Source: Deltaproteobacteria bacterium UBA2385 (lineage in GTDB: Bacteria; Myxococcota_A; UBA796; UBA2385). From it: DNA of 10,287 nt. A program made the position numbers and the translations under genes. Within the stretch, counting starts at the first letter, position 1; each line of letters begins with the position of its first letter. The stretch is from the NCBI GenBank assembly GCA_002343455.1, contig DDSR01000160.1, positions 1 to 10,287 on the forward strand, given 5' to 3'. Shown piece after piece: positions 2,402 to 8,370 of this stretch. The notes beneath the pieces are model-generated. The model saw only the letters and a program-made list of their open reading frames with translations. It searched no databases and was not told the origin of the DNA.

Positions 2402-2959
2402 ATGCTGCTCTGGGCCCTGATCGCCTGCTGGGCACCGGAGCTCGCCCCGCCGGGCCCGAGCGAGGCGCTGCCTGGCGATCCGGGCGTGATCTTCGTCGAG
2501 GGCGGGCTGATCCTGCCCGAGTCGGTCGAAGGCGGCGGCCGGGCGCTGACCGAGGGCCGGAGCCTGTGGACGCAGCGCTGGAGCCCGGGCGAGGAGCTGG
2601 ACCTGGCGACCGGCGGGCTGCGGGTCCGGGCTCGGGCTCCGGCACAGGCGGCCTGCGTGCTGCTCTTCCGGGTGGGCCTGGGCGATGTGCCGCCCCAGAC
2701 CCTGGGCCTGGTGGGCGAGGTGCTGACCGTGCAGCGCCCCGGCCGCGAGGCGATGGCCCTGGACACCTGGCAGGGAGAGGCCCGGCCGCTGCCCACGGAG
2801 GAGGGCGCCCCCCTGCCGAGCGCCGAGCTGCCCGCGGCCTGCCCGGCCGAGTCGGCCACCCAGGTCTGGGCCCTGCCCGAGGGCCGACGCCTGGCGATAG
2901 AGGGCCCCTTCACCGAGCGCTCGGGCGAGACGGCCTGGCGGCTCGCCGTCTTCCGCTGA
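2402..2959 (+). CDS. Hypothetical small lipoprotein
   Basis: A 185-residue predicted lipoprotein that I do not recognise. The ATG at 2402 is supported by AGGGAGG four bases upstream and by an immediate, very short signal peptide, MLLWALIAC, with C9 as the lipidation site. There is no positive n-region. The mature protein is rich in Pro, Glu, Gly and Leu, has alternating short strand-like segments (for example ACVLLFRVGLG at 84-94 and TQVWALPEGRRLAIEG at 153-168), and ends in WRLAVFR. This suggests a small beta-rich periplasmic domain. Two further cysteines, C85 and C147, could form one disulfide. The gene is six bases upstream of the paired-cysteine repeat gene on the same strand, so the two probably form an operon. 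Envelope localisation is inferred from the signal alone. Confidence 0.75.
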   Translation: MLLWALIACWAPELAPPGPSEALPGDPGVIFVEGGLILPESVEGGGRALTEGRSLWTQRWSPGEELDLATGGLRVRARAPAQAACVLLFRVGLGDVPPQTLGLVGEVLTVQRPGREAMALDTWQGEARPLPTEEGAPLPSAELPAACPAESATQVWALPEGRRLAIEGPFTERSGETAWRLAVFR

Positions 2960-2965
2960 GCCCGC

Positions 2966-3919
2966 ATGACCGATCTCCGCTTCCTGCTGCTCTACTCGCT
3001 CTGCCTGGGCCTCTGCCTGGCGGCGATCCAGGCGCTGCAGCGTCGGCCGGCTCCGCCTCCCCCTCCCCCCGTGGAGGCGGTCCAGGCGGTCGCCATCGCC
3101 CTGCCCCCCAAGCCCGAAGGGGCCCGCGCGGCCAGCGGAGCGGGCGAGGAGGGCTACCGCTACACCGAGGAGGGCTGCGAGGCGCGCGAGGGCGAGCTGC
3201 GGGACCTCTGCTTCCACCAGCTGGCGATGCAGCGCAGCCGCAGCGATCTGGAGGGGGGGCTGTTGGCCTGCGCGCGGATGGAGCGGGAGGAGGGCCGAAT
3301 GGAGTGCCAGAGCGACGTGGCCGAGGGCTATGCGCGGGTCGACCGCGACGCCTCGCTGGCGGTCTGCCCCGGCATCGGCCGCAAGAAGTGGCGCGACCAG
3401 TGCGTCTTCGGCATCGCCCTGGCCTACGCCAAGGTCGAGCCGGAGTGGGCCTTCCGGCGCTGCGACGAGGCCGGGCAGTGGCGGGACTTCTGCCGGCACG
3501 ACGTCAACGGCGAGATCGCCGAGATCGACGTGGACCTGGCCCTGGCGCACTGCGCGGCCGAGGAGGGCGATCTGCTGCGCCGCAAGAGCTGCTGGCACGG
3601 CATCGGCAAGTACCTGGCCCGGGTCGACGTCGACGCGGCCTTCGCCGCCTGCGCGCGGGTGCCGGCGGGGCCCGAGGGCCTCTACCGCGAGAACTGCATC
3701 CACGGCCTGGGCTGGGGGGCCAGCGAGTCGGCCGGCGCGGCCTTCCTGGCCTCCTGCGGGCGGGCGGGGCCCGAGCAGGACTCCTGCCGGCTGGGGGTGG
3801 CCTACAACCTGGTGCGCTTCGACCCCGCCCTGGCGCTGGAGATCTGCGGCGGCACGCAGCGGGCCGACCTGCGCGGCCAGTGCGAGGCCTTCGTGCGCGC
3901 TACAGGCTCGCGGCGCTGA
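2966..3919 (+). CDS. Membrane-anchored protein with eight paired-cysteine repeats (TonB/TolA-like topology)
   Basis: I do not recognise a named family, but the architecture is clear. The 317-residue product has one N-terminal membrane helix (about 5-22), a polyproline linker (about 28-36, with PPKP at 47-50), then an extracytoplasmic repeat domain from C71 to C306. The cysteines are at 71/82, 102/114, 134/146, 166/176, 196/209, 229/244, 264/274 and 294/306. The gap inside a pair varies from 9 to 14 residues. The gap from each pair to the next is exactly 19 residues in all seven cases. The 19-residue segment has the consensus xxGIAxxYARVDxDxAxxx and is probably helical. The eighth unit is cut short at GSRR. 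This recalls disulfide-pinned Sel1/TPR-like solenoids, but the spacing is its own. A helix plus Pro-linker plus periplasmic domain is the layout of TonB and TolA. No good Shine-Dalgarno is seen. The 3' end overlaps the convergent ExbD gene by 20 bases. Confidence 0.85.
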   Translation: MTDLRFLLLYSLCLGLCLAAIQALQRRPAPPPPPPVEAVQAVAIALPPKPEGARAASGAGEEGYRYTEEGCEAREGELRDLCFHQLAMQRSRSDLEGGLLACARMEREEGRMECQSDVAEGYARVDRDASLAVCPGIGRKKWRDQCVFGIALAYAKVEPEWAFRRCDEAGQWRDFCRHDVNGEIAEIDVDLALAHCAAEEGDLLRRKSCWHGIGKYLARVDVDAAFAACARVPAGPEGLYRENCIHGLGWGASESAGAAFLASCGRAGPEQDSCRLGVAYNLVRFDPALALEICGGTQRADLRGQCEAFVRATGSRR

Positions 3920-4352
3920 CGGCGACCAGCTCGATCTCGCGGTAGCCGGCCTGCTGGGCGCTGAGCAGGACCTTGGAGATGAGCGGCCAGGGGGTGCCCT
4001 CGTCGGCGCGCAGCAGGACGCGCTCGCCGCCTCGGGCGGAGAGGGCCTCGCCGACCTCGTGGACGACGGCGTCCTCGCTCTGCAGGTGGAAGGCGACGCT
4101 GCCGGCGCGGCGGCCGTCGACGTAGAGGCCGCGCTGGCCGATGTCGACGATGACGCCGGGGCCGGTGGGGTCCTCGGCCCGCGAGACGGGCAGCAGGGCG
4201 GGCTCGGGCAGGTCGAGGGGGGCCTCGCTGGACCAGGTGCGCAGCAGCACGACCAGCAGGAGCGTGAGCAGATCGACCAGGGAGGCCAGGGCGGGCGCCT
4301 CCAGGCCGGCGCGAGGGGACGCTGAGCGCAATCGAAAGCGGCGGGCGCTCAT
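3900..4352 (-). CDS. ExbD/TolR-family proton-channel subunit (with membrane Asp)
   Basis: A 150-residue biopolymer-transport protein of the ExbD/TolR family. These proteins pair with ExbB/TolQ in the inner membrane to couple the proton gradient to work in the periplasm. A short basic N-terminus (MSARRFRLRS) leads into one membrane helix, about 20-38, read as APALASLVDLLTLLLVVLL. D27 sits where E. coli ExbD has Asp25 and TolR has Asp23, the proton-binding residue. The periplasmic part ends in the typical segment VLLRADEGTPWPLISKVLLSAQQAGYREIEL (112-142). The ATG at 4352 overlaps the upstream stop in ATGA, which fixes the start. This is the last gene of the ExbB-ExbD-ExbD operon. Its stop lies inside the 3' end of the convergent paired-cysteine gene. 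Confidence 0.9.
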   Translation of the reverse strand: MSARRFRLRSASPRAGLEAPALASLVDLLTLLLVVLLRTWSSEAPLDLPEPALLPVSRAEDPTGPGVIVDIGQRGLYVDGRRAGSVAFHLQSEDAVVHEVGEALSARGGERVLLRADEGTPWPLISKVLLSAQQAGYREIELVAVSAASL

Positions 4353-4834
4353 GGGGCAGGCTCCAGCACCACCTCGGGGAAGAGGGGGCCATCGGGGCCC
4401 TGGCGCAGCGCGTCGACCAGGGCGACCAGGGCGGCGGCGTCGGTCTCGGCGTGCGGGGCGAGCTGGACCCGGCGGCGGGCGGGGTCCAGCGCCTTGAGGC
4501 GGCCCAGGTGGGCCTGGAGGGCGGGCAGGTCGGGGGCGAGGAGCTCCTGCTGCTCGACCTCGCCGATCTGGGCGCGCACATCCGAGCGGCGCACGCCGGC
4601 GCGGACGCGGTAGCCCTGGGGCTCGACCTCGACCCGCAGGGACTCGACGGGGCCCGGCGGCAGGGGGGGCAGCTCCTCCTCCGGGCCGGCCAGGGCGAGG
4701 CCGATCCCGGTCAGCTTCTGGCCGGAGCTGGTGAGCAGGATCATCGGCACGATCACCAGCATCAGCGAGGCGACGGCCAGCAGGGCGGGGCGCGCGTCGG
4801 GGGGCGGCCGCTCGCCGCGGAAGAGCCGCCTCAC
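4349..4834 (-). CDS. ExbD/TolR-like protein lacking the membrane Asp
   Basis: A 161-residue protein with ExbD/TolR layout: basic cytoplasmic start (MRRLFRGER), one membrane helix (about 15-36, ALLAVASLMLVIVPMILL) and a periplasmic domain ending in a TDAAALVALVDAL...FPEVVLEP stretch like the ExbD C-terminal helix and strand. The GTG at 4834 overlaps the ExbB-like stop in GTGA, and its own stop overlaps the next start in ATGA, so both ends are firm. Unlike the downstream ExbD, no Asp or Glu lies in the membrane helix: the position expected for the proton-binding Asp aligns roughly with S23. It may be a structural second subunit in a heterodimer with the Asp-bearing copy. Family membership is from pattern and context, and is less certain than for the neighbour. 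Confidence 0.78.
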   Translation of the reverse strand: MRRLFRGERPPPDARPALLAVASLMLVIVPMILLTSSGQKLTGIGLALAGPEEELPPLPPGPVESLRVEVEPQGYRVRAGVRRSDVRAQIGEVEQQELLAPDLPALQAHLGRLKALDPARRRVQLAPHAETDAAALVALVDALRQGPDGPLFPEVVLEPAP

Positions 4835-5439
4835 CCGCTGGCCTGCGTCCGCTTCGACAAGGCCAGCAGGCCGGCCAGGGCCTCGCAGAGGGCGAGCTCG
4901 CGGCGGGCCCGGCCGTCGAGCAGGGCGTGGACACCCAGCGCGGGGATGCCGGTGATCAGCCCCCAGGCGGTGGTGGTCATGGCCGTGGCGATGCCCTCGC
5001 CGATGCGGGTGGCCCGCTCGACCGCGCTGCCGTCGCCCAGGCCCTCGAAGGCCAGGATCAGGCCGAAGACGGTGCCCAGCAGGCCCAGCATCGTGGCGAG
5101 GTTGCCCGCCGTGGCCAGCCAGGGCAGGCGGCGCATGATCTGCTCCTCGGCCAGGGCGGCTTGCGCGCCCATCGCGTCCCAGGCGGCCTCGGCGTCGGGC
5201 TGGGCGGCGCCGGCGGCGATCAGCTCGGCGGCGGGGTGCCTGCCCATCAGGTCCTGGGCACGCCGGGCGTCGCCGCTGCGCATCGCGGCCAGGGCGGCCT
5301 GCGGATCGCCTCGCCAGCCCAGGAAGAAGAGCATGCTGCGCTCGACGCCGACGGCCAGGGCCAGGGCCAGCAGCGCGGTGATCGCGTAGAGGAAGGGGGC
5401 GCCGGGGCCGGCGAAGGACTGCGCGAGGGCGTCGAGCAC
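4831..5439 (-). CDS. ExbB/TolQ/MotA-family motor protein
   Basis: A 202-residue inner-membrane protein of the ExbB/TolQ/MotA proton-channel family, the scaffold subunit that surrounds ExbD/TolR helices. Three membrane segments are visible at about 14-40, 112-134 and 150-174. The second contains NLATMLGLLGTVFGLI and the third GIATAMTTTAWGLITGIPAL. These are the two signature helices with the small and Thr residues (T123, T155-157) that line the channel in the family. I start it at the GTG at 5439 because AAGGGAGAG lies five bases before it. The ATG at 5469 would add ten residues but has no ribosome binding site and lies within a dyad. The stop overlaps the next start (GTGA). With no TonB or Pal/TolB in view, I cannot say whether it is of Tol, Exb or gliding type. 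Confidence 0.92.
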   Translation of the reverse strand: MLDALAQSFAGPGAPFLYAITALLALALAVGVERSMLFFLGWRGDPQAALAAMRSGDARRAQDLMGRHPAAELIAAGAAQPDAEAAWDAMGAQAALAEEQIMRRLPWLATAGNLATMLGLLGTVFGLILAFEGLGDGSAVERATRIGEGIATAMTTTAWGLITGIPALGVHALLDGRARRELALCEALAGLLALSKRTQASG

Positions 5440-5492
5440 GGAATCTCTCCCTTCGGGGCGGGCTATCATGCCCGCACACCAGGAGGCCGCGG
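5440..5492. promoter_or_regulatory. Divergent promoter region with inverted repeat GCGGGC-TATCAT-GCCCGC
   Basis: The 53 bases between the ExbB-like gene (-) and the paired-cysteine lipoprotein gene (+) hold a perfect six-base inverted repeat, GCGGGC (5458-5463) and GCCCGC (5470-5475), around TATCAT. TATCAT resembles a -10 box on the plus strand; no convincing -35 precedes it. Shine-Dalgarno sequences lie on each side: AGGAGG (5481-5486) for the plus gene and the AAGGGAGAG complement (5445-5453) for the minus gene. The dyad could be an operator that controls both directions. This is inferred from symmetry and position only. Confidence 0.4.
5445..5453 (-). promoter_or_regulatory. Ribosome binding site that decides the ExbB-like start
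   Basis: Read on the minus strand, AAGGGAGAG lies five bases before the GTG at 5439. The in-frame ATG at 5469 has no such sequence in front of it, so the shorter 202-residue form is preferred. Confidence 0.6.
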
Positions 5493-5897
5493 ATGCTTGG
5501 ATGGACGACGCTCTGGATCTGGACGCTGTGGGCCTGCGGGCAGTCCGGGCCGGCGACTCCGGAGTCGTGCCGGGCGATGGCGGCCGGCGCGGCGCGCGAC
5601 GAGTGCTGGGCGACGGTGGCGCCGGAGCTGTTCCGCGCCGATCCCGTCGCGGCCGAGGCGCTGGTGCGCGAGCAGGTCCAGGACCCGACGGTGCTGGACT
5701 TCATCTGGCTGACCGTGACCCGCGAGGTCTACCCCGAGACCCCGCTGTACTGCGAGAAGATCGCCGACGAGGCGATGAAGACCCGCTGCCGGACGGTGGT
5801 CAGCCGGCCCCACCTGCACCGCTCGCTGAAGGAGGGCGCCGACGGGCCGGGCCCACAAGGAGCGCCCCCGGGGGCTCCGCCGATGCCGCCCGGCTAG
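5493..5897 (+). CDS. Small lipoprotein with decayed paired-cysteine repeats
   Basis: A 134-residue predicted lipoprotein with no named family that I can give. AGGAGG six bases before the ATG supports the start. The signal MLGWTTLWIWTLWAC is Trp-rich and uncharged, with C15 as the lipidation site. C26 and C38 are 11 residues apart and the following 19-residue stretch (WATVAPELFRADPVAAEAL) matches the repeat consensus of the 2966-3919 protein. The next two expected cysteine positions, 58 and 70, are Val and Phe, so the whole pair is missing. A last pair, C87 and C99, is again 11 apart, after a 16-residue segment. The tail is Gly/Pro-rich (GPQGAPPGAPPMPPG). I read this as three repeats of the same family. 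It diverges from the ExbB-ExbD-ExbD operon. Confidence 0.8.
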   Translation: MLGWTTLWIWTLWACGQSGPATPESCRAMAAGAARDECWATVAPELFRADPVAAEALVREQVQDPTVLDFIWLTVTREVYPETPLYCEKIADEAMKTRCRTVVSRPHLHRSLKEGADGPGPQGAPPGAPPMPPG

Positions 5898-6124: not shown

Positions 6125-6502
6125 TCAGCCCGTCCCTGGGCCGATCAGGTCCCGCATCCGCTCGCGCAGCTCGGAGAGGCTGAAGGGCTTGTGGATGATC
6201 GAGGTGGGGACGTGGGGGGTGGTGCGCCCCAGGTTCTCGCTGGCGTGACCCGTGATGATCAGCACCGCCTGGGTGGCGCCCCGGCGGCCAAGCTCGAGGA
6301 TCACGTCGCGCCCGGAGATGCCCGGCATCTGCCAGTCCACCAGGGCCAGGTCGAAGGGGAGCGGCTGCGCGTCCAGCAGGTCCATGGCCTCGCGGCCGCT
6401 GCCGACGACGACCACGTCATGCCCCAGCCCTTCGAGGTACTCGGCCACGACGTCGCGGATCTCGAACTCGTCGTCCACGATCAGGATGCGCCATGTAGCC
6501 AT
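6125..6502 (-). CDS. Single-domain response regulator (CheY-like receiver)
   Basis: A 125-residue stand-alone receiver domain with no output domain. All the key residues are present: the acidic pair D10/D11, phosphoacceptor D56 in LALVDWQMPG, T84 in LIITGHA, and K105 followed by P106 in IIHKPFS. It should be phosphorylated by a histidine kinase, which is not in the window, and act by protein-protein contact. The ATG at 6502 has GAGGA four bases upstream. The start is only 17 bases from the divergent start of the Lon-like gene, which hints at shared control or a shared job. The stop lies next to the hairpin-rich gap. It could be a CheY/Spo0F-type phosphorelay carrier; nothing links it specifically to chemotaxis. 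Confidence 0.93.
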   Translation of the reverse strand: MATWRILIVDDEFEIRDVVAEYLEGLGHDVVVVGSGREAMDLLDAQPLPFDLALVDWQMPGISGRDVILELGRRGATQAVLIITGHASENLGRTTPHVPTSIIHKPFSLSELRERMRDLIGPGTG

Positions 6503-6519: not shown

Positions 6520-8370
6520 ATGTTACCGCGGGGCGCCCGGTCTCGTCGTGAGACCCTGGAGAACCACCTGCGATTGCCCGAGCGCCTTAGTCCGGATCGC
6601 CTGCGGTGGCGCCTGCCACACAGAACTTTTGCCACACCGCCCCTCGACCCGCTCGCCCAGGTGCTGCCGGCACAGGCCAGCGGCCGAGCGCTGCTGCGCC
6701 GCGAGGTGCTCGACCCCAGCGGAGCGCACCTCTTCCTGACCGGCCTGAGCGGCCCCGAGCGCCGTCAACAGGTCCTCGCCGCCCTGCGCTGCATCGCCCC
6801 GCCCAACCGCGACCGCCGCGACCTGGTCTGGGTGCCCGATCCGGTCATGCCGCAGCGGCTCCTGCTGCGCCGACTGGCGGCCGGCCAGGGGCGCTCCTAC
6901 TGCGCTCCTCGACCCAGCGGAGGGGCTCCCCACCTCTTCCACCAGGGCGAGCGCGGCCTCGTCGCGCCGATCGTGCTGGCGGCCGACCCCACTCCCAGCC
7001 TGCTGGCGGGCAGCCTCGACCCCGGGGCTACGGCCCTCCAGCGCTCGCCGCGGGCAGGGCTCCTGCACGACGCGCACGGCGGCTTCTTGATCCTGGACGC
7101 CGACGACCTGGAGCGCCAGCCCGCCTCGCTGCGCCTGCTGCGGCTGCTGCTGGCCGAGGGCGGACTGCGACCGGGCGTCGCCGAGGAGCGTCCGGCCCTG
7201 CTGGCCGAGGTGGTGCCCCTGGATGTCCGCCTGGTCATCGTCTGCGCCAACGGCAGCACCGCCGCCTCCTGGCTGTCCGACGCCGATCTCTCCGCCCTGG
7301 TGCGCAACCCGGTCAGCTTCGACCCGCGCCCCGAGCTGGACCCCCAGGTCGGAGGCGAGCTGCGCGCCTGGATCGAGGAGCGCGGCCGGCAAGCCGGCTG
7401 GCCCGCCCTCTTGGAGGAGGCCTTCGCCCTGGCCATCGAGCACCTGGTGCGCGAAGGAGGGCGCGGCGGACGGGTCCCGATGGATCTGCCCCTCCTGGAG
7501 AGCCTCGTCGCCCAGGCAGCGCGGCGATCCCAGGGCCAGGACATCGACGCGCCGACCATGGCCGCGGTCATCGGCGAGTGGAAGGCCTGCCGCGCCTGGT
7601 CGGGCACCTGGACCCGCCGCTCGATGCTGGAGGGCTTCTTGCAGATCCCCTCCGAGGGCACGGCCATCGGCGAGGTCAACGGCCTCGCCGTCTACCGAGG
7701 CACCGGCCAGACCTTCGCCCGGCCGATCCGGGTCAGCGCCAGCGTCGGCAGCGGCAAGGGCGGCCTGGTCGACGTCGAGCGGGAGGTCGGGCTCTCGGGC
7801 CCCAGCCACCAGAAGGGCGTGCGCTTGCTGACCGGCTTCCTCCGGACCCGCTTCTCGCGCCGGCGGACCCTGGCGATCCAGGCCTCGCTGGCGGTCGAGC
7901 AGCACTACGGCAGGATCGACGGCGACAGCGCCAGCCTCGCCGAGCTCTGCGCCCTGCTCTCGGCCCTGGCCAACGAGCCGCTGCGCCAGGACATCGCGCT
8001 GACCGGGGCGGTCGACCAGCGCGGGAGGGTGCTCTCGGTGGGCAGCGTCACCCTCAAGGTCGAGGGCTTCTTCCGCCTCTGCGAGGCGCGGGGGCTGAGC
8101 GGCCAGCAAGGCGTGGTCCTCCCCCTGGCCAGCGTCGGGGATCTCTGCCTGGAGGAGGACATCGTCACCGCCTGCGCGCAGGGGCGCTTCCACCTCTGGA
8201 GCGTCGGCACGGTCGAAGAGGCGCTCTCCCTGCTCTGCGCCCGCGAGGTCGGCGATCCGCAGGCCGAGACCTGGCCCGAAGACAGCCTCTACGGCCGCAT
8301 CGACGCCGAGCTGCTGGCCTTCGAGGCCGTCCAGCGCGAAGCCAGCCGCGGCCCCGCCGCCCGGCGCTGA
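6520..8370 (+). CDS. Lon-like serine protease (AAA_32/LonB type) with degenerate ATPase domain
   Basis: A 616-residue protein of the YcbZ/AAA_32-Lon type. The N-terminal LSPDRLRWRLP (23-33) matches the usual family opening. The P-loop position reads LFLTGLSGPERRQQ (71-84): neither the Lys-Ser/Thr nor the GxGK spacing survives. A Walker B-like GGFLILDADDL lies at 187-197. PLDVRLVIV (233-241) follows. The Lon proteolytic domain covers about 380-575 and is intact: catalytic S470 in DGDSAS and K513 in TLKVEGFF, with LRQDIALTGAVDQRG between. The long coiled-coil that usually splits the AAA part is absent, so the protein is shorter than the common size of about 800. The ATG at 6520 lacks a ribosome binding site; TTG 6574 is an alternative. 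The protease is probably active, perhaps without ATP hydrolysis. Confidence 0.9.
   Translation: MLPRGARSRRETLENHLRLPERLSPDRLRWRLPHRTFATPPLDPLAQVLPAQASGRALLRREVLDPSGAHLFLTGLSGPERRQQVLAALRCIAPPNRDRRDLVWVPDPVMPQRLLLRRLAAGQGRSYCAPRPSGGAPHLFHQGERGLVAPIVLAADPTPSLLAGSLDPGATALQRSPRAGLLHDAHGGFLILDADDLERQPASLRLLRLLLAEGGLRPGVAEERPALLAEVVPLDVRLVIVCANGSTAASWLSDADLSALVRNPVSFDPRPELDPQVGGELRAWIEERGRQAGWPALLEEAFALAIEHLVREGGRGGRVPMDLPLLESLVAQAARRSQGQDIDAPTMAAVIGEWKACRAWSGTWTRRSMLEGFLQIPSEGTAIGEVNGLAVYRGTGQTFARPIRVSASVGSGKGGLVDVEREVGLSGPSHQKGVRLLTGFLRTRFSRRRTLAIQASLAVEQHYGRIDGDSASLAELCALLSALANEPLRQDIALTGAVDQRGRVLSVGSVTLKVEGFFRLCEARGLSGQQGVVLPLASVGDLCLEEDIVTACAQGRFHLWSVGTVEEALSLLCAREVGDPQAETWPEDSLYGRIDAELLAFEAVQREASRGPAARR

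Follow-up and report, generated by a model that had tools for sequence, protein, structure and literature searches.

A paired-cysteine repeat protein family encoded beside genes of a TolQ-TolR/ExbB-ExbD-type proton motor

According to the accessible sections of PMC12204202, the force transducers surveyed there share a three-part layout that consists of a membrane helix, a Pro-rich linker, and a C-terminal domain. The proposed vWA-domain transducers have a C-terminal fold that is not TonB-like, in many cases keep the SHLS motif, and are encoded beside one tolQ-like gene and two tolR-like genes that differ from each other (PMC12204202). The same sections argue that diverse envelope systems powered by 5:2 proton motors await discovery, and the main text contains 0 occurrences of cysteine or disulfide. 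A further described system is the gliding motor of Myxococcus xanthus, in which AglQ and AglS both carry a conserved Asp (PMC9389320, accessible sections). Among repeat proteins, the accessible parts of PMC3851747 describe the Helicobacter Hcp proteins as tandem alpha/alpha repeats in which the end of each repeat is tied by a disulfide to the beginning of the following one, and give 36–38 residues as the usual length of Sel1 repeats. Here, we describe CYS16, which looks like an uncharacterised and strongly conserved family belonging to a seemingly uncharacterised motor module; we found no description of this family in the openly accessible literature, nor in Pfam, NCBIfam, or PDB.

The window, that is, the whole stretch of DNA that was analysed, comprises 10,287 nucleotides (contig DDSR01000160.1 of Deltaproteobacteria bacterium UBA2385), and its features are collected in Table 1. 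The first-pass annotation of this stretch had described the cysteine array of CYS16, and this description stood, but it had missed the neighbourhood of motor genes and a second repeat protein, CYSlipo. Between CYS16 and CYSlipo lie, on the minus strand, a MotA/TolQ/ExbB gene and two genes of the ExbD type (ExbDa and ExbDb), of which ExbDa converges with CYS16 and overlaps its end by 20 bases. Both features of TolQ/TolR-ExbB/ExbD motors, i.e., a MotA_ExbB domain and an ExbD with a membrane Asp, are present in the window.

Table 1. Coordinates of the features of the CYS16 locus in the window
Feature	Position	Strand	Remarks
Lipoprotein-like gene, ends 6 bases upstream of CYS16	2402..2959	+	few relatives have a copy
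CYS16, membrane-anchored protein with eight-pair cysteine array	2966..3919	+	317 aa ORF
CYS16 N-terminal hydrophobic helix, predicted membrane anchor/signal-anchor	2978..3040	+	residues ~5-25; hydropathy
CYS16 Pro-rich linker, ends in conserved IAxPPKPEG box	3041..3121	+	residues ~26-52
CYS16 array, eight C-x(9-14)-C pairs and seven 19-residue spacers	3176..3883	+	residues 71-306
ExbDa, ExbD/TolR-type, membrane Asp kept	3900..4352	-	PF02472, 31.3 bits, cut-off 25.4
ExbDb, divergent ExbD-type, no acidic residue inside membrane helix	4349..4834	-	PF02472, below cut-off
MotA/TolQ/ExbB proton-channel protein	4831..5469	-	start 5439 or 5469; PF01618, 85.7 bits
CYSlipo, lipoprotein-like, three units of the same repeat spacing, Pro/Gly-rich tail	5493..5897	+	middle unit without cysteines

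The cysteines that follow residue 50 of the window protein stand at residues 71, 82, 102, 114, 134, 146, 166, and 176 in the first half of the array and at 196, 209, 229, 244, 264, 274, 294, and 306 in the second half. They are sixteen in eight pairs, exactly as counted before, and two extra cysteines within the N-terminal hydrophobic helix (13 and 17) lay outside that count. The gaps reported in the first-pass annotation were also recovered, both within pairs (10, 11, 11, 9, 12, 14, 9, and 11) and between pairs (19 in all seven cases), and the resulting units are 30–35 residues long. When the end cysteines were fixed and the other 14 were placed at random, all-equal gaps were obtained in 0 of 200,000 draws on either gap set, and a random cysteine pattern was rejected on the basis of these draws and of the spacing conserved in homologues.

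To describe this conservation, we scored 7998 candidates (the proteins with the most words shared with CYS16), among which 303 were homologues at E up to 0.01; the statistics given here come from the 120 listed. Sixteen cysteines follow residue 50 in 117 of these 120 proteins, and the remaining three are P0068, which has an additional pair, and the short proteins P0069 and P0081. The spacer measures 19 residues in 818 of the 819 spacers of the 117 homologues, with a sole exception of 21. The drift of the gap within pairs, as previously described, holds between units but not across homologues, where each unit's gap is nearly fixed and varies only at units 1, 2, and 6 (117 proteins). Likewise, of the 22 members obtained by gene calling (the window copy and those of 21 loci), 21 have all 16 cysteines and every visible spacer is 19, while the copy in L039 shows 14 cysteines because its start was called late. 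In alignment A1 (77 members), all 16 array cysteines are invariant, as are, among others, H178, H211, and H246. The paired-cysteine array is the mark of a conserved protein family.

This family has no credible match in Pfam (77 members scanned) or PDB, the window protein has none in Pfam, NCBIfam, or PDB, and a PDB search with the family profile returned 0 matches to E 10. The earlier remark that no named repeat has this period agrees with these searches, in which none passed the cut-off in Pfam, NCBIfam, or PDB; nor did any of the 77 members give an above-cut-off Pfam match to Sel1 or TPR, a match that had been named as removing the novelty. The only Pfam match of the window protein was to the zinc finger UBZ_FAAP20 (E 0.0028, 17.8 bits versus a cut-off of 25), which was matched by 4 of the 77 members at E up to 1 and was rejected. 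TPR was also rejected, with TPR_12 matched by a single member of the 77 (E 0.35). The Hcp proteins resemble CYS16 in having tandem alpha/alpha repeats with disulfides, as far as the predicted fold of CYS16 goes; they differ in their longer Sel1 units (36–38 versus 30–35 residues). Neither a Sel1 match (PF08238) nor, in sequence and profile searches, an Hcp chain was obtained, and this assignment was rejected as well. Our search of the openly accessible literature found no relevant account of disulfide-paired solenoids.

Regarding the fold, residues pooled over the 117 proteins show a clear positional preference in the spacer, with His at position 2 (55%), Gly/Asp at 3, Val/Ile/Leu at 4, Ala/Gly at 5, Asp at 12 (72%), and Ala at 16 (66%), and with Arg three residues before the second Cys in 65%. 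At positions 10, 13, and 14, Pro makes up 11–14%, and at no other position does it exceed 3.4%. The 19-residue segment had been read as one rigid helix; this pattern of Asp and Pro fits a helix-turn-helix instead, and the single rigid helix is probably wrong. We suggest that helix A would run from the second Cys to about position 11, that a tight turn capped by Asp12 would follow, and that helix B would extend to the first Cys of the following pair, with the variable loop joining helix B to the following helix A and closed by the Cys pair. Judged from these residue patterns, the array is likely an alpha solenoid. In a test of hydrophobic periodicity at 90–110 degrees, 54 of 2000 shuffles attained the value of pooled helix A and 170 of 2000 that of pooled helix B; of seven single units, only two (5 and 6) were clear, and the test as a whole was mostly not significant. 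The helical-repeat reading is partly supported: its short, disulfide-closed C-x(9-14)-C loop and its non-Sel1 character were retained, and its single rigid helix was not.

Which cysteines pair with each other can be approached through CYSlipo, whose homology to CYS16 is weak by profile (E 1.4e-4, probability 52%). Its cysteine gaps in the window are 11, 48, and 11, and 48 equals 19+10+19, so the middle unit lacks either cysteine. The same arrangement of two short pairs without both middle-unit cysteines was seen in 41 of 42 homologues (37 with 11-48-11, two with 10-48-11, one with 11-50-11, and one with 11-47-11); the homologue P0122 starts too late to reveal its first pair, and extra N-terminal cysteines occur in P0139 (one) and P0152 (two). 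Because both are absent from the middle unit, cysteines appear to go missing as a short pair, which argues for the earlier proposal that the variable segment is a loop closed by a disulfide, as does the fact that the arrays of CYS16 and CYSlipo both open and close with complete short pairs. The disulfides might instead connect neighbouring pairs, from the second Cys of one to the first Cys of the following one, so that each constant 19-residue hairpin, whose ends should be near in space, would be stapled at its open end. Disulfides do staple across the hairpin in CHCH-type hairpins. We nevertheless consider this pairing very unlikely, since the short pairs of CYSlipo have no cysteine 19 residues away in those 41 homologues and since the end cysteines of both arrays would be left unpaired.

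The repeat was also found in lipoprotein-like paralogues with three units, of which 26 were examined; these are the best matches to the CYS16 profile, counted by their six-cysteine pattern, and hence a biased sample. All six cysteines of the first three pairs are kept in them, with pair gaps of 8–11 and spacers of 13–23, and the 19-residue spacing is not universal to this repeat. A profile of 17 of these paralogues matched CYS16 units 2–4 at E 1e-16. Three-unit paralogues with further cysteines after the units (L002, L043-L047, and L077-L096) were seen in many genomes of the order. In L107 (G020:C270, minus strand, 182-2311), one frame holds a CYSlipo-like stretch followed by the three-unit type, and one unit of the CYSlipo-like stretch reads as Ala replacing both cysteines.

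The short pairs of CYS16 are likely disulfides. VKOR is a family of disulfide-forming enzymes, and it was found in 71 of 71 class genomes, which makes disulfide formation outside the cytoplasm plausible. A different reading is that the cysteine pairs bind a metal or cofactor, or sense redox for the motor, rather than forming structural disulfides; it draws on the three invariant histidines, each of which stands at C+2 (units 4, 5, and 6; 77 members), and on the pooled frequency of His at spacer position 2. Paired cysteines in even number are, however, the usual sign of disulfides when the protein is predicted to be extracytoplasmic and the genome has VKOR, units 2, 3, 7, and 8 of the window protein lack that His, and no metal-binding family passed the cut-off for this protein, so we regard a metal or redox role as unlikely.

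Ahead of the array, the N-terminal layout of CYS16 is largely shared among its homologues. A stretch of 18 residues above a mean hydropathy of 1.6 occurs within the first 35 residues in 106 of the 120 listed homologues, and Pro averages 7.5 in residues 26–70 (composition over the same 120). The linker is only ~45 residues long, which counts against the hypothesis put forward below. P47, P48, and P50 are invariant in the 77-member alignment, and 119 of the 120 listed homologues and 13 of 14 members of a second clade carry PP[KR]P among their first 80 residues; requiring PP[KR]P[EDQ] within 75 residues leaves 107 of 120 and 6 of 14, respectively. In TonB/TolA transducers, the “motor box” is a beta-strand that comes after the membrane helix and binds ExbD/TolR, and we treat the IAVPPKPEG box, which appears strand-like, as a candidate for such a box. 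The lipoprotein-like gene just upstream, possibly co-transcribed with CYS16, was matched by tblastn in L006, L014, L021, and L026, which represent two genomes.

Compared with TonB and TolA, CYS16 is alike in its predicted N-terminal membrane helix, Pro-rich linker, conserved box, and large periplasmic C-terminal part, and in the position of its gene beside ExbB/TolQ and ExbD/TolR genes. It differs in that its C-terminal part is a cysteine-paired repeat array with neither TonB_C nor SHLS. Specifically, Pfam scans of 77 members gave no match to TonB_C (PF03544 and kin) at E up to 1, the SHLS motif is absent with S-x-H in only 2 of the 120 listed homologues, and any His at all occurs in the first 30 residues of 30 of these 120. 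For these reasons, CYS16 may work like TonB or TolA and is not classed as one. The vWA-domain transducers are similar in their non-TonB C-terminal part encoded beside a tolQ-like and two tolR-like genes, whereas CYS16 members gave no vWA match and have eight cysteine pairs and no SHLS.

The motor genes themselves could be assigned with different confidence. The MotA/TolQ/ExbB product matched TolQ and ExbB chains in PDB by profile, and ExbDa matched ExbD and TolR in alignments that set its membrane Asp against ExbD residue 25; this Asp is present in 19 of 19 ExbDa copies (late start of the L027 copy corrected). ExbDb of the window matched PF02472 at E 0.0025 (18.3 bits, cut-off 25.4), this domain was recovered at E up to 1 in 12 of 13 relatives, with 5.8e-7 as the best value, and a PDB search with ExbDb gave 2 unconvincing matches only. 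None of the 20 copies of ExbDb (late starts corrected) has Asp or Glu inside the membrane helix, all 20 have an Asp directly before it, and a profile alignment (E 1.8e-4, probability 49%) places small residues, Ser in the window, where the membrane Asp would be. By sequence, then, ExbDa and ExbDb are an unequal ExbD pair, one with and one without the proton-carrying Asp. The AglRQS-Glt system is similar in combining one MotA/TolQ-like and two ExbD/TolR-like proteins with envelope partners (PMC9389320 and PMC3169522, accessible sections). In that system AglQ and AglS both keep the Asp, so ExbDa and ExbDb are unlike the Agl pair, with ExbDb lacking it. If true, this would be a natural motor with two unlike ExbD subunits and would bear on how the ExbD dimer works.

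Motor genes accompany CYS16 in most of its loci. A MotA gene was found by tblastn near CYS16 in 20 of 22 fetched loci (none in L025 and L039), and by gene calling 19 of these loci have ExbDb nearby and 18 have ExbDa, counts taken over all 22 loci, including L026, which has no gene calls, and L034, which ends inside the block; several of these loci come from the same assemblies as the genomes surveyed below. Three arrangements were observed, in which CYS16 is convergent with ExbDa (the window), immediately precedes MotA on the same strand at a distance of 4–14 bases (13 loci), or has CYSlipo in between (L036).

Across 71 class genomes, CYS16, ExbDb, and CYSlipo are all present in 34, all absent in 32, and partly present in 5. 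Taken singly, a strong CYS16 match was found in 36 genomes (at least 218 bits; the G013 copy is cut by a contig end), ExbDb in 37 (at least 130 bits), and CYSlipo in 38 (at least 43 bits). The five partial sets (G002, G005, G006, G053, and G058) are from assemblies that are 78–88% complete; in G005 the contig ends before the place of CYS16, and G006 (83% complete) has the motor genes and CYSlipo, with a different open frame at the CYS16 place and CYS16 not found. The three matches lie on different contigs in several genomes, e.g., G015, G022, G011, and G056, and in G015 CYS16 is inside a 160-kb contig without a MotA match within the 8 kb examined. By family, strong CYS16 matches were detected in 6 of 10 genomes of f1, 22 of 22 of f2, 2 of 2 of f3, 0 of 21 of f4, 4 of 4 of f5, 2 of 4 of f6, and 0 of 8 of f7–f9. 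Fisher tests of co-occurrence gave values of ~1e-15 to 1e-16, which overstate the case because kinship is ignored, and the co-occurrence rests on few independent events because the absences mostly form two blocks (21 genomes of f4 and 8 of f7–f9).

In a sample of the phylum, 38 of 377 genomes had matches (six candidates scored per genome), two of them to short paralogues only, and all belong to one order of Myxococcota. Shared ancestry therefore explains part of the co-occurrence, and the linkage could be purely historical, with genes that are neighbours and share a lineage without sharing a function. We find this improbable, as the motor neighbourhood survives three arrangements while other neighbours change, and as CYS16, ExbDb, and CYSlipo are retained together even on different contigs. 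Overall, both the array and its association with the motor are well supported, and because its gene travels with the motor genes, CYS16 may be part of a proton motor.

We hypothesize that CYS16 is a dedicated envelope partner of a TolQ-TolR/ExbB-ExbD-type proton motor, a stapled periplasmic solenoid and perhaps a transducer, and we give this hypothesis an about even chance. Mechanistically, one N-terminal helix would anchor CYS16 in the inner membrane beside the motor, and the Pro-rich linker with its box would lead to a periplasmic alpha/alpha solenoid in which each inter-hairpin loop is closed by a C-x(9-14)-C disulfide. Such a stapled solenoid could serve as a stiff rod or adaptor that relays the pull or turning of the motor to a partner in the outer membrane, for which CYSlipo, which co-occurs and has the same repeat spacing, would be the leading candidate. 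Within this hypothesis, physical binding of CYS16 to the motor is probable, the transmission of force is more speculative, and the partnership with CYSlipo is speculative.

Helical repeat proteins are commonly adaptors, and CYS16 could also be a static periplasmic scaffold, stator, or assembly chaperone that transmits no force, with another protein as the transducer. Genes with TonB_C were found in 71 of 71 class genomes and genes with TolB_N in 67 of 71, so a standard Ton/Tol transducer could serve this motor; the same counts led us to reject the CYS16 system as a replacement for Tol-Pal or Ton. The absence of SHLS from CYS16 also suits a static role, as does the TPR gene that accompanies motor-vWA operons (PMC12204202, accessible sections). 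This alternative is possible and less likely than a dedicated partner, since CYS16 has the parts required of a transducer (an N-terminal helix, a Pro-rich linker, and a conserved box), and no TonB_C gene was recognised by eye among the conserved neighbours. Returning to the dedicated partner, its fullest form would be a new envelope machine in which a TolQ-like pentamer and an unequal ExbD pair drive the stapled solenoid and, through it, an outer-membrane lipoprotein of the same repeat, and this we propose only tentatively. If true, it would add a 5:2-motor envelope system with a recognisable and strongly conserved partner, and the cysteine spacing of CYS16 makes both its rigidity and its connectivity directly testable.

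Several other genes recur around the block. In 11 of the 13 loci where CYS16 lies upstream of MotA, the gene ahead of CYS16 encodes a protein of 54–61 aa, and in L039 it encodes one of 50 aa; these small proteins (L028, L030-L033, L035, and L037-L042, just upstream of CYS16) combine a hydrophobic and a Pro-rich stretch with a conserved end, W[ML]xx[LI]GY. The L028 copy had no Pfam match, and the small protein is perhaps another motor subunit. A gene resembling M16 peptidases is nearby in all 13 of these loci (M16 domains checked in L028). The contigs of L031, L034, and L038 are titled as a Klebsiella pneumoniae MAG and carry the block of the myxococcotal order, so these titles look wrong. In several relatives, the region upstream of the block has a divergently oriented DUF547 lipoprotein-like gene (1584-2372 of the window, minus strand). 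On the other side of the block, a stand-alone response regulator (6125-6502, minus strand) and a neighbouring Lon-like protease with a LonB-type AAA domain (6520-8370, plus strand) were found in the window, and counterparts of both were seen close to the block in L021 and L036.
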